DNA of 35,052 nt from Candidatus Yonathbacteria bacterium RIFCSPLOWO2_01_FULL_47_33b (GTDB lineage: Bacteria; Patescibacteriota; Minisyncoccia; Phycocordibacterales; UBA1550): assembly GCA_001823575.1 (NCBI GenBank), contig MHUW01000013.1:1-35052 (forward strand). Direction: 5' to 3'. Each line of letters opens with the position of its first letter. Positions within the stretch are counted from its first letter, which is position 1. A program made the position numbers and the translations under genes. Below the pieces are notes generated by a model. It was not told the origin of the DNA. It was given only the letters and a program-made list of their open reading frames with translations, and searched no databases. Shown piece after piece: positions 345-30,352 of the stretch.

Positions 345-2510
345 ATGGAACAACTGCCGCAAAGACTATCCGTTGAAGAACTACATGATTTGTCCGATGA
401 AAAGAAGCATACGCGGGGTGCTTTGAGCGACCTCAGTGCGGAGAAAATGCCACAGGAAATGAGTGAGGATCTTTCCGAAGAACCTCGTGGAATTTTGGAA
501 ACCTTGAAAGAGAAATCACAAGGTCTCATTGAGTCCTACGGCGGAATATCAAAGGTGAAAGAAGCTCTCCGTGAACGGCACTCATTTGATGTTCTCTCCG
601 CACATTTTGAAAAAGATGCGGTGCAGAATCTCAAAGAACACACGGAGGCGAAAGAAGTGTACGATACGCTTGCCATCAAGCAGATCAAAAGGAATGTTTC
701 TCTCGGCGGGTCTTCACCGGTCGCGCAAAACATTCTCAACAGATATCAAGAAGGCGCACAACACGAAGAAGAAGCGCTTAAAACTATCCAAGAAAACGAG
801 CCGATCCTCGCTCGCGCGCACGAGCTTCTCTCGTACCAAGAGGGGCTGTCCAAAGAGGGGCACATCTGCCCGCTTCCTTCTACCGTCGGCTACATCAAAA
901 GCATAGAAGAACGAATGATTACTGGCAAACCCGTGTTCCTCCACGGAGCGACCGGCACTGGGAAGACTTCACTTGCTCGCTATGCCACAAAGGAGTTGAC
1001 GGGCAAGGATGCTGAAATGGTGTACTGCTCACCACAGTTTCGCGAACAGCAGGTATGGTCCACGACGGGGCTTCGTGCGACCGAAGACGGCAAGGGTGTG
1101 GAGACGGTCGTCATCTACGGTCCGCTCGCTCGCGCAATGCGTGAGGGTAAAGCCATCATTTTTGACGAGTTCACGACATTGCCCAAAGAACAGATGGCGT
1201 TCATCAAGGGGGTGTTCGGGGTAAAGATTGGCGACAAGATTACTGTTCCCGGGAATGGCGAAATCGCCGTACAAAACGGGTTCCAGATGATATTCACCGC
1301 CAATCTGAAGTCCGAGAAAAATCAAGAACGAAGCGACCTCCCTCCAGAAATGGCGAGTGAGTTTGAGCAGAACAATATGGAGATTGGGTATGCAAGCACA
1401 GAGGAAATGTATGACACGATACTCGCGCGTCTCATCGACCGTAAAGGAAACCTCACGCTTTCATACGAGGATTTGCAAGACACGCTTCCCAAGTTTGTCT
1501 CAGCTATAAAAGAAGTTCAGATTGCATACGCAGGTATCTTGCCCGACGACGAAGCAAAAAAACTCGGCGTAATGGAAGCCAATGGAAGAGTGCAGGGACT
1601 TAAAAAGTTTGTAATGAGCCAGAGGTCCATCGAAGCGATCCTTGAAAGATGGAATGTTGAACAGACGAGAAATGCCGATGCAAACTTCAGAAACTTTCTC
1701 GACGATGCGCTCCAGACAGGCATCACCTTCAAAGAATATCCGGAAGCAGATCGCGAGCTCGTCGCAAAGATATTCGCCACAAAAGGATTTTTGAGGACCA
1801 AGAGTGAAAGCGACCTCGGGCTCAAGAGTGGTTCACTCAAAGGGCTCCACTCAACAGGGCAATACGAAGAGGTAAAAAAGCAGACGCTTTCTATAAAAGA
1901 TGTTGCCACGCTGGACCCGTTTCACACGAGAAAATCCAAAGAGCAAGAAGAGGCTGAGTCATTTGTTAAGGAAGAAATAGGAACAGAATCAAATCCTGAA
2001 GAACTCGAGTCCACCATCGCTCGCGTCCGTGAAGCAGGATTCCTCGACGCGTCATTTGAAGGTAAAGAAACTCATCGCCTCGCTATTGAAGCACTCCCCA
2101 AAGAAGAAGCAATCGAAGCATATCGAAAGAGTGGTGGTGAAACATATATATGGGCAGAGCTCGAAAAGAACATGCCCTACACAACACCAAAGGCAGAAAA
2201 GCTCGATGTGATACTCCTTGGCTTTGGTAAATCGGTCACAAGTGATGAAGCTCTTGCAGAAATGGAGAGACTTGGTGTTCGCCCCCTCACCTACGAGGAG
2301 CTTATTCAATACGGTATCGTAAACCCAGAAGCTCAGAAGAAAAACCCCCACGTTGCATTGGGAAGTAAACATTCCCTGGGCGGCGGTCCTCGCGCTCCGA
2401 TCCTCCGCGTCGGCGACGGCGGGCGCGGCCTGTGCGCCCTCCGTTGGGGCGGTGGCTGGGGCGGGGGGGTGCCGTTTCCCCGTTGTCCGCAAGTAGTGCT
2501 TTGGCTTTAG
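345..2510 (+). CDS. MoxR-like AAA+ ATPase with DGR-diversified C-terminal domain (DGR target 1)
   Basis: Walker A GATGTGKT, Walker B AIIFDEF, MIFTAN sensor-like motif. The C-terminal ~150 aa are homologous to the 29702-30352 product and end in VR1. A +1 G shifts the last ~15 codons; without it the gene would stop at 2496 with ...WGGGCRFPVVRK*. Confidence 0.88.
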   Translation: MEQLPQRLSVEELHDLSDEKKHTRGALSDLSAEKMPQEMSEDLSEEPRGILETLKEKSQGLIESYGGISKVKEALRERHSFDVLSAHFEKDAVQNLKEHTEAKEVYDTLAIKQIKRNVSLGGSSPVAQNILNRYQEGAQHEEEALKTIQENEPILARAHELLSYQEGLSKEGHICPLPSTVGYIKSIEERMITGKPVFLHGATGTGKTSLARYATKELTGKDAEMVYCSPQFREQQVWSTTGLRATEDGKGVETVVIYGPLARAMREGKAIIFDEFTTLPKEQMAFIKGVFGVKIGDKITVPGNGEIAVQNGFQMIFTANLKSEKNQERSDLPPEMASEFEQNNMEIGYASTEEMYDTILARLIDRKGNLTLSYEDLQDTLPKFVSAIKEVQIAYAGILPDDEAKKLGVMEANGRVQGLKKFVMSQRSIEAILERWNVEQTRNADANFRNFLDDALQTGITFKEYPEADRELVAKIFATKGFLRTKSESDLGLKSGSLKGLHSTGQYEEVKKQTLSIKDVATLDPFHTRKSKEQEEAESFVKEEIGTESNPEELESTIARVREAGFLDASFEGKETHRLAIEALPKEEAIEAYRKSGGETYIWAELEKNMPYTTPKAEKLDVILLGFGKSVTSDEALAEMERLGVRPLTYEELIQYGIVNPEAQKKNPHVALGSKHSLGGGPRAPILRVGDGGRGLCALRWGGGWGGGVPFPRCPQVVLWL
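2375..2492 (+). repeat. DGR variable region VR1
   Basis: Aligned by hand to TR 2862-2978. Mismatches fall only at TR adenines (24 of 26 changed: 20 to G, 2 to C, 2 to T) plus one inserted G. Confidence 0.96.
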
Positions 2511-2861: not shown

Positions 2862-2978
2862 CCTGGACGGCAATCCTCACGCTCCGATCCTCAACGTCAA
2901 CGACGACGAGCGCAACCTGAACGCCAACCATTGGGGCAATGACTGGGACGAGAGGTACCGTTTCCCCGTTGTCCGCAA
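2862..2978 (+). repeat. DGR template repeat (TR)
   Basis: Adenine-rich AAC/GAC/AAT codons; the non-A scaffold is identical to VR1; lies upstream of the RT gene; ends in the shared TTTCCCCGTTGTCCGCAA block (IMH-like). Confidence 0.96.
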
Positions 2979-2987
2979 CTTTATTTC

Positions 2988-3410
2988 TTACTCCCGCGCT
3001 TTTGCGCGGGAGTTTTCTTTTTCTGTTTGCGCAAGTATCTGGTTGTGCCAGCCACCGAGCATGCGCCCTACTTCGAAAAGCTTTTCAGAGAGCGCAATGA
3101 ACTTTTTTGCATCGAGTGCGTCGACTTTGTTTGCGACACGAAGGAGGAGTTTTACCGTGTCGAGTAGCTGAATTGCTTTTTGAATGTGAACGGTCTTGTG
3201 TTCCTTTTTTACAAAAAGTGCCGAGGATATATAGCACATGATTTCACACAAGAGAGAGTCTATTTTTGCACCGAGTGAGTAGCGGTGGATTTTTGGAAAG
3301 TGTAGAATGTAGGAATGCCACAAAGTATACGCAACTTCAATCTTGAGAATGAGGGGTGGGATGTCTGTGGGTATACGGGGGGGGGGTGGACATAAAGGAA
3401 AGTATACCAT
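2988..3410 (-). CDS. avd: Avd-like DGR accessory protein (four-helix bundle)
   Basis: HFPKIHRYSLGAKIDSLLCEIMCYISSALF...KAIQLLDTVKLLLRVANKVDALDAKKFIALSEKLFEVGRMLGGWHNQ matches the Avd/four-helix-bundle pattern; the start codon is uncertain. Confidence 0.82.
   Translation of the reverse strand: MVYFPLCPPPPRIPTDIPPLILKIEVAYTLWHSYILHFPKIHRYSLGAKIDSLLCEIMCYISSALFVKKEHKTVHIQKAIQLLDTVKLLLRVANKVDALDAKKFIALSEKLFEVGRMLGGWHNQILAQTEKENSRAKARE
2990..3013 (+). terminator. Strong hairpin immediately downstream of TR
   Basis: ACTCCCGCGC-TTTT-GCGCGGGAGT followed by TTTCTTTTT. Confidence 0.7.
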
Positions 3411-4320
3411 ACAGAATGTACCCAACGCCCGTTCTTTTGAAGAAATCATCTCATACGAAAATTTATTGCGCGCGTGGGAAGATTTTATAAAAGGAAAGCG
3501 TGGCAGGAGAGACGTGGATATGTTTGCTCGTACATTGTCAGATAACTTGTGGCAACTTCACTTTGATTTAAAGAATAGCACTTATGCGCATGGAGGGTAC
3601 CATGAGTACACTATTTGTGATCCAAAAAAACGTACGATACACAAGGCAAGTGTGAGAGACAGGGTGGTACATAGACTAGTCTACAATGCTCTCTATCGGT
3701 ATTTTGATAAGCGGTTCATTCATGACTCGCACTCATCGCGAAAAGGGAAGGGGACACACAGAGCGCGCGACAGGTTTCGGCTTTTTGCGCAGAAAGTTAG
3801 TAAAAATTATACAAAGCAATGTTTTGTCTTGAAATTTGATATACAGAAATGTTTTGCGAGTATTGACCAGACAACGCTTTTGGAAATTCTTAAAAAACAT
3901 ATTGCTGATGATGAGGTGTATGACATTGTTGCTATAATCATTGGGAGCTTTAAATGCGGGCTTCCGCTTGGGAACCTCACTTCCCAACTTTTTATCAATG
4001 TGTACCTCCACGAGCTTGATTGGTTTTGTAAACATACCATTCGCGCAAAATATTATTTGCGTTACGCTGACGATGTTGTTATTGTATCGGATGATGAAGA
4101 TGAGCTCGACGTTGCGTACAGAATAATCGCTGATTTTTTGTTAAGCAAACTTTATCTTACGACCCACAAAAAGAGTGTGGCTACCATTTACCAAGGGGTT
4201 GACGTGTTGGGCGTGATATTCTTCCCCCGATATGGTATTTTAAGGAGAAGGACGAGGGTGCGGATGAGGGTGCGAGAACAACATGGAAAATATCTTCAAA
4301 CAAGAAATGGCGCAGAATAG
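3343..4320 (+). CDS. DGR reverse transcriptase
   Basis: HKASVRDRVVHRLVYN, DSHSSRKGKGTHRA, LKFDIQKCFASID, GLPLGNLTSQLFINVYLHELD, YLRYADDVVIVSDD, GVDVLGVIFFPRYGILRRRT; the exact start is uncertain. Confidence 0.95.
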   Translation: MRMRGGMSVGIRGGGGHKGKYTIQNVPNARSFEEIISYENLLRAWEDFIKGKRGRRDVDMFARTLSDNLWQLHFDLKNSTYAHGGYHEYTICDPKKRTIHKASVRDRVVHRLVYNALYRYFDKRFIHDSHSSRKGKGTHRARDRFRLFAQKVSKNYTKQCFVLKFDIQKCFASIDQTTLLEILKKHIADDEVYDIVAIIIGSFKCGLPLGNLTSQLFINVYLHELDWFCKHTIRAKYYLRYADDVVIVSDDEDELDVAYRIIADFLLSKLYLTTHKKSVATIYQGVDVLGVIFFPRYGILRRRTRVRMRVREQHGKYLQTRNGAE

Positions 4321-29637: not shown

Positions 29638-29668
29638 TTGACGCGAGACTCGGGGGGGGGGCTATACT
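29638..29668 (+). promoter_or_regulatory. Predicted promoter with G10 tract in the spacer
   Basis: TTGACG - 19 nt including GGGGGGGGGG - TATACT, 34 nt upstream of ATG 29702. Confidence 0.65.
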
Positions 29669-29701
29669 ATAGGGATTAGTAATACGTAGCCACCAAATAT
29701 T

Positions 29702-30352
29702 ATGGAATCAGCACCGCAACATCATCGAGAGGGAATTCAGGAACTTTTGGATAAAGCGTATGACGAGGGTCACCGCGATAACGTCGCGATGAAAGAAGGT
29801 GAAGTAGTAGAAGAAAGAGTCGGGCATATGGATGACAAAGAAATGCATGGCAAGTCTTCACAGGAAAGAACTTTGAGTTTTCTTCGTGATAGGGGCTACC
29901 TCGACACCTCGTTTGAAGGAAAGGAAATCCACCACCTTGTCGTTGAATCACTCTCTAAAAAAGAAGCGTTTGATCGCTACTGCAGTAGCGGCAGGACATC
30001 TGTATGGGATGGGTTGGAAGAGAATATGCCCTACATGACGCCGGAAGGGACAACACTTGACGTGATGATTATGAAGTTCAACAAAGTCATTGGAAGCGAT
30101 GAGGCAATCACCGAAATGGCAACTCTTGGTGTACGCCCTCTCACTTACGAGGAACTCATCCAGTACGGTATTGCATACCCAACACACCAAGAAAAAGACG
30201 CTTTTAACGGGCTGGGAAGCAAACACACCTTTGAGAACGGCAATGTGCTTACCCCGCGTCTCGTCTTGAGCGGTGGCTATCGTGTGCTGTGTGCCAATTC
30301 TTGGGACAGCGATTGGAGCGAATGGTGTCGTTTTCCTGTTGTTCGCAAGTAG
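29702..30352 (+). CDS. DGR-target-like protein (paralog of the MoxR target C-terminus, carrying VR2)
   Basis: LRDRGYLDTSFEGKEIHHLVVESLSKKEAFDRY...LGVRPLTYEELIQYGIAYP...GLGSKHTF...WDSDWSEWCRFPVVRK* parallels the 345-2510 C-terminus. Confidence 0.9.
   Translation: MESAPQHHREGIQELLDKAYDEGHRDNVAMKEGEVVEERVGHMDDKEMHGKSSQERTLSFLRDRGYLDTSFEGKEIHHLVVESLSKKEAFDRYCSSGRTSVWDGLEENMPYMTPEGTTLDVMIMKFNKVIGSDEAITEMATLGVRPLTYEELIQYGIAYPTHQEKDAFNGLGSKHTFENGNVLTPRLVLSGGYRVLCANSWDSDWSEWCRFPVVRK
30234..30350 (+). repeat. Diverged VR-like region (VR2)
   Basis: Codon-by-codon alignable with TR/VR1 but with many non-adenine differences. Confidence 0.75.

Follow-up and report, generated by a model that had tools for sequence, protein, structure and literature searches.

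A frame-shifting simple repeat at the start of avd as a candidate phase-variation switch on the DGRs of Patescibacteria

The DGR of the window and its G tract

The window analysed here, a stretch of 35,052 nucleotides from Candidatus Yonathbacteria bacterium RIFCSPLOWO2_01_FULL_47_33b (contig MHUW01000013.1), contains a genuine DGR, with a reverse transcriptase (RT), an adjacent Avd, and template and variable repeats (TR and VR) that differ at TR adenines. The RT gene (3343..4320, plus strand; candidate starts TTG 3343, ATG 3349 and ATG 3361) matches the Pfam profile PF00078 at 4.8e-20 and avd, on the minus strand, matches PF22296 (bAvd) at 1.4e-11, both exceeding the curated cut-offs. The latter gene covers 2988..3393 from its better-supported start, ATG 3393, or 2988-3410 from the alternative start ATG 3410. 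Comparison of TR (2862..2978, plus strand) with VR1 (2375..2492, plus strand), located within target 1, an AAA+ ATPase-like protein (345..2510, plus strand, PF07728 match), revealed that 24 of the 28 TR adenines are substituted and none of the 89 non-A positions is changed, with one G inserted. This extra G belongs to a G7 run at 2464-2470, produced by A-to-G changes and one G longer than in TR, and as a consequence the C-terminus of target 1 is frameshifted (..GGGVPFPRCPQVVLWL and not of the ..FPVVR type).

The divergent avd and RT genes meet at a simple-sequence repeat of exactly ten bases (3377..3386), to which no strand is assigned and which reads as G10 for the RT and C10 for avd. An earlier note on this DNA had suggested that this tract, placed at the shared 5' ends of both genes, was a possible translational or transcriptional switch, and the geometry it described was confirmed in the sequence: G10 is in frame after ATG 3361 of the RT (likewise after ATG 3349 and TTG 3343), the minus-strand ATGTCCACC (ATG 3393-3391) misses the avd frame by one base at C10 and matches it at C9, and an extended -10 TGGTATACT (3401..3409, minus strand) is found, whose TATACT (3406-3401) ends exactly 7 nt before ATG 3393. 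Computed from this ATG, the products are of 18 aa at C10, 134 aa at C9 and 135 aa at C12. A further minus-strand ATG (3410-3408), absent from the earlier note, reads into avd in register when the tract is C10, for a product of 140 aa.

Shine-Dalgarno-like motifs preceded none of 113 putative avd ATGs, where about 5 were expected by shuffling, and a Shine-Dalgarno start was consequently dropped and a leaderless geometry of -10, 7 nt and ATG adopted. In 43% of the putative avd starts, compared with 6% of other same-strand ATGs, a -10-like TANNNT hexamer is found at a distance of exactly 7 nt ahead of the ATG, as in a leaderless transcript. The geometry seen at ATG 3393 recurs in three relatives (L010, L031 and L032), and on account of this recurrence and of its -10 at 7 nt, ATG 3393 is favoured as the avd start. 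With this start avd is probably OFF in the window as assembled (C10) and would be ON at C9, whereas from the candidate start ATG 3410 avd would be ON at C10, with avd and RT both ON at ten bases. Annotation pipelines will often miss or mis-start avd in these genomes.

Throughout the 719-kb genome (22 contigs) there are just 7 tracts of nine or more Gs, every one at the 5' end of a gene, and the tract of the window is far beyond chance. A second DGR of the same genome (contig C15) carries G10 at the matching RT/avd junction; its RT is cut by the contig end, and its target gene (L241, about 1500-1530) has an N gap inside the variable region, which suggests a diverse population at assembly. Elsewhere in the window, a G10 (29652-29661) lies between TTGACG and TATACT, with a 19-nt spacer, upstream of a 216-aa ORF (29638-30352, plus strand) whose C-terminus resembles a DGR variable region, and the whole looks like a second DGR target that is phase-variable through its promoter spacer. 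The same Gn-CTATACTA flank is seen at contig C1:15610 (L243:1511-1519), where G9 lies within the 18-nt spacer between TTGCCA and TATACT, followed by a protein of 229 aa whose N-terminus resembles a signal peptide. Two paralogous large proteins (L245:2623-2633 on contig C3 and L240:1562-1570 on C16) bear poly-G within a signal-peptide-like N-terminus; at the assembled lengths, G11 and G9 respectively, both seem to be out of frame, and hand reading puts them in frame at G10. Another G11 (contig C1:67569, L244:2070-2080) closely precedes the gene of a histidine kinase that has Cache and PAS domains.

A simple repeat at the avd/RT junction across the phylum

The RT loci of 397 genomes were collected in an order-wide survey, which yielded 146 distinct loci, or 143 scorable ones once three at contig edges were left out. 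A perfect simple repeat is present at the junction in 134 of these 143, and by type the repeats of the 146 loci are 124 tracts of G6-G14 on the RT strand, 8 dinucleotide and 2 tetranucleotide arrays, (GTCA)n and (AACC)n. Tracts of G7+ or C7+ number 119 in 11,043 nt of junction, whereas the other 316,741 nt of these loci contain a single one. Outside the order, 54 of 80 further loci sampled from the phylum have a repeat, namely 36 mono-C tracts, 14 dinucleotide arrays (CT, CA, GA) and, more rarely, one (CAAT)7, two pentamers of the AGGAC type and one 8-mer (two copies only). No convincing array with a 3- or 6-base unit was found among the order and phylum loci, the lone AATx3 call in the phylum sample being at background level. 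The repeat units are thus of 1, 2, 4, 5 and possibly 8 bases, all of them frame-shifting, and the tract of the window belongs to a pattern of the RT/avd junction that spans the Patescibacteria. A G-specific structure such as a G-quadruplex was rejected, since some loci have (CT)n, (CA)n or (CAAT)n in place of G.

The length of the tract varies from 6 to 14 in relatives, which was one of the checks that the earlier note had asked for; the outcome that it regarded as fatal, with both proteins starting downstream of the tract or with an invariant length, did not occur there. The nearest relative, Parcubacteria bacterium GW2011_GWA1_47_8 of the same genus (RT 76% identical), has G9 compared with ten in the window, and it was the sole match in a scan of the genome contigs for relatives. 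Related DGRs may also differ in the unit itself, as three of them (L133, L185 and L117) show different tetranucleotides at one place (AACC, CAAT and GTCA), L133 and L185 being very near on the RT tree (distance 0.1).

Register of avd and RT and its possible causes

The repeat sits within the 5' coding region of avd, and 130 of 131 order-level loci have an ATG at 3-75 nt ahead of it; the avd start codons are putative, and part of the ATGs within 75 nt is expected by chance. In an ordinary gene this ATG would share the frame of the avd body. At the observed repeat length, such an ATG is in frame with the avd body in 54 of 185 repeat loci, about one third. The controls behave differently: repeat-less divergent loci of Patescibacteria have an in-frame avd ATG in 26/26 cases (Fisher p=5.7e-13 against the repeat loci), co-directional DGRs of phages and viral contigs in 43/45 (the other two start with GTG or TTG, hence 45/45 with any start), and divergent loci of viral contigs in 9/9 without a repeat versus 0/3 with one. 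As expected of a contingency locus, a repeat unit not divisible by three in a 5' coding region is here combined with a length that varies among relatives (C6-C14) and with partial register. Loci with a unique frame solution divide into 36 in frame, 44 that need one unit more and 74 that need one less (or two more), a bias toward one OFF frame (chi-square p=4e-4) which pure randomisation of the frame does not predict and which counts against the proposed switch.

When frame state and repeat type were mapped on an RT tree of 212 loci, frame state required 69 changes, against 66.9 +/- 3.0 with shuffled labels, so that it carries no phylogenetic signal, as expected of a state that turns over far more quickly than species arise. 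The distribution of repeat types agrees with the RT tree, yet with at least 16 changes among repeat loci, which indicates that the repeat is maintained while its sequence gets replaced. Moreover, avd is full length in OFF loci, and its dN/dS is 0.05-0.18 in five OFF/OFF pairs, similar to pairs with an ON member; a further OFF/OFF pair (L071/L082) gave 0.37, with a near-saturated dS. A permanently silent gene would decay, and since the OFF avd genes are intact and constrained, permanent silencing is unlikely. No MutS was detected in the assembly of this genome (~92% complete), with the control positive in 11/14, and slippage would be raised without this protein.

For the RT, the situation is less uniform. 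The earlier note had proposed that a length change could alter both divergent genes, a claim with strong comparative support for avd that holds only in part for the RT. Of the 131 order-level loci, 96 have an in-frame ATG between the tract and the RT core, which makes the RT frame independent of the tract. Conversely, no ATG, GTG or TTG occurs between tract and RT core in 22 loci, including the window, L010, L031 and L032, and with no canonical start downstream of the tract the RT of the window and of the three nearest relatives examined is probably frame-dependent. In the window, ATG 3349 and ATG 3361 lead to a full RT solely at G10 (mod 3).

Other causes of the register pattern have to be weighed. 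The tract could mainly be a promoter-spacing element or a 5'-UTR rheostat of the RT, like the poly-G of porA, its place in avd being incidental. A -10-like TANNNT hexamer 5-9 nt before the RT ATG abuts the tract in 23 of the 60 loci having such a hexamer, the window not being among them, and poly-G also stands between -35 and -10-like elements elsewhere in the genome (29652-29661 and C1:15610), so an effect of the tract on RT transcription is possible. However, the abutting hexamer follows a loose consensus, no enrichment of a -35 at the correct spacing from it was found, and a rheostat leaves unexplained both why avd is out of register in repeat loci only and why 3-base units are lacking; as the main role of the tract we hold it to be unlikely. 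Alternatively, the C tract could be a site of programmed slippage by RNA polymerase or of frameshifting by the ribosome, and some in-frame Avd would then be made at any genomic length, with no switching of the DNA. RNA polymerase slippage can arise on homopolymers of 9-12, and the purifying selection on avd in out-of-frame loci agrees with such a programmed event. Nevertheless, the GTCA, AACC, CAAT and AGGAC repeats found at the same place are not expected to support RNA slippage, and start and body are not separated by a constant offset, the loci being spread 36/44/74 over the three frames. For this reason and for the tetra- and pentanucleotide units a programmed frameshift was rejected, and we hold this family of explanations to be very improbable.

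The start codons themselves could be misleading if avd truly began downstream of a noncoding tract, at a non-canonical codon. In many loci the distance from the tract to the avd core is indeed just a few codons, and in 28 of 131 the core is preceded by a TTG, but the codon at that position is merely Leu, Pro or other (TTG, TTA, CCT, CCG, CTG and so on), and for this lack of conservation TTG was rejected as the start. Besides, the observed avd frame is devoid of any ATG, GTG or TTG in 61 of the 131 loci of the order, and all repeat-less relatives have an ATG at the corresponding place, so that we give a downstream start only a slight chance. Errors of homopolymer sequencing or assembly might also create apparent frameshifts, and assemblers do struggle at the tract: of the 13 N runs counted over 491 kb, 3 coincide with it, in three loci. 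No length polymorphism within a species was seen among the loci compared, which counts against the switch; in the sole near-identical pair (L148/L149, RT 99.9%) one member has an intact C9 and the other a 19-N assembly gap at the tract. Such trouble may in turn reflect real mixtures of lengths, and since no error can put a repeat at one junction phylum-wide, or generate di-, tetra- and pentanucleotide arrays there, this is the explanation to which we grant the least, close to none.

We favour, with considerable confidence, slipped-strand phase variation of Avd, by which this targeted hypermutator would be turned ON and OFF stochastically. Replication slippage in living cells would alter the number of Gs at the tract, as at other contingency loci, and thereby put the start codon and the body of avd in register or out of it; an out-of-frame tract would mean no Avd, and no Avd would mean no DGR activity. 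In the reconstituted BPP-1 system, inactivation of bRT, Avd or TR drops repair (DGR activity) to about 1e-9 (PMC12875486), and because Avd is the RT partner that retrohoming needs, the tract would be a switch on retrohoming, giving heritable, reversible and stochastic control of targeted hypermutation. In the window one tract may shift both genes, with avd ON at C9 and RT ON at G10. It thus seems likely to us that, in the DGRs of Patescibacteria, targeted hypermutation is itself phase-variable through a frame-shifting repeat in avd that has been replaced convergently, most cells keeping stable receptors and a minority diversifying, and that in some lineages, this one included, the tract also sets the RT frame, where avd (C9) and RT (G10) could be mutually exclusive if the proposed starts are right.

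Proposed phase-variable hypermutation and known systems

Contingency loci and DGRs are two classic ways in which bacteria localise mutation. If the proposed switch is true, one of these systems controls the other and so turns a mutator on and off, in a phylum for which genetic tools are scarce, and the activity state of a DGR would become readable from the length of its tract in existing metagenomes. Roux et al. 2021 described a DGR clade 2 that is confined to Patescibacteria, found cellular clades to have a slower amino-acid turnover and left open the control of RT activity (PMC8144416). The main text makes no mention of Avd, homopolymers, frameshifts or phase variation (PMC8144416), and our loci resemble its clade 2 in being DGRs of Patescibacteria. 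A phase-variable Avd offers a testable answer to how cellular DGRs avoid continuous mutation and why those of the Patescibacteria type turn over slowly (PMC8144416).

Simple-repeat contingency loci and DGRs are each well known. A literature search, covering few subscription journals and no preprints, found no report that joins DGRs with simple-repeat phase variation, and a phase-variable DGR appears to be new. Like the DGR of Bordetella phage BPP-1 (mtd-avd-TR-brt), the locus of the window has RT, Avd and a TR/VR pair with adenine-specific substitution. Six phage DGRs with a scoring avd profile differ in that their avd is co-directional and shows no repeat at its start, whereas the Patescibacteria form is divergent and, in our reading, repeat-controlled; the avd of BPP-1 and ANMV-1 was not detected by the profile and falls outside this six-phage comparison.

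The resemblance to the contingency loci of Neisseria, Haemophilus, Campylobacter and Helicobacter is a close one, given that poly-G/C, di-, tetra- and pentanucleotide arrays occur there too in 5' coding or promoter sequence, with frame-shifting units and, in many genomes, a start codon that is not in register with the body. In the divergent promoter of hifA/hifB of Haemophilus influenzae, one TA repeat is common to two divergent genes. In porA of Neisseria meningitidis a poly-G is placed in the promoter (PMC3639595). Unlike both, the repeat described here lies inside the beginning of the avd coding sequence, avd being one gene of the divergent pair. Most of the known loci govern surface structures or DNA methyltransferases, whereas in the Patescibacteria the gene concerned is part of a targeted hypermutation machine.
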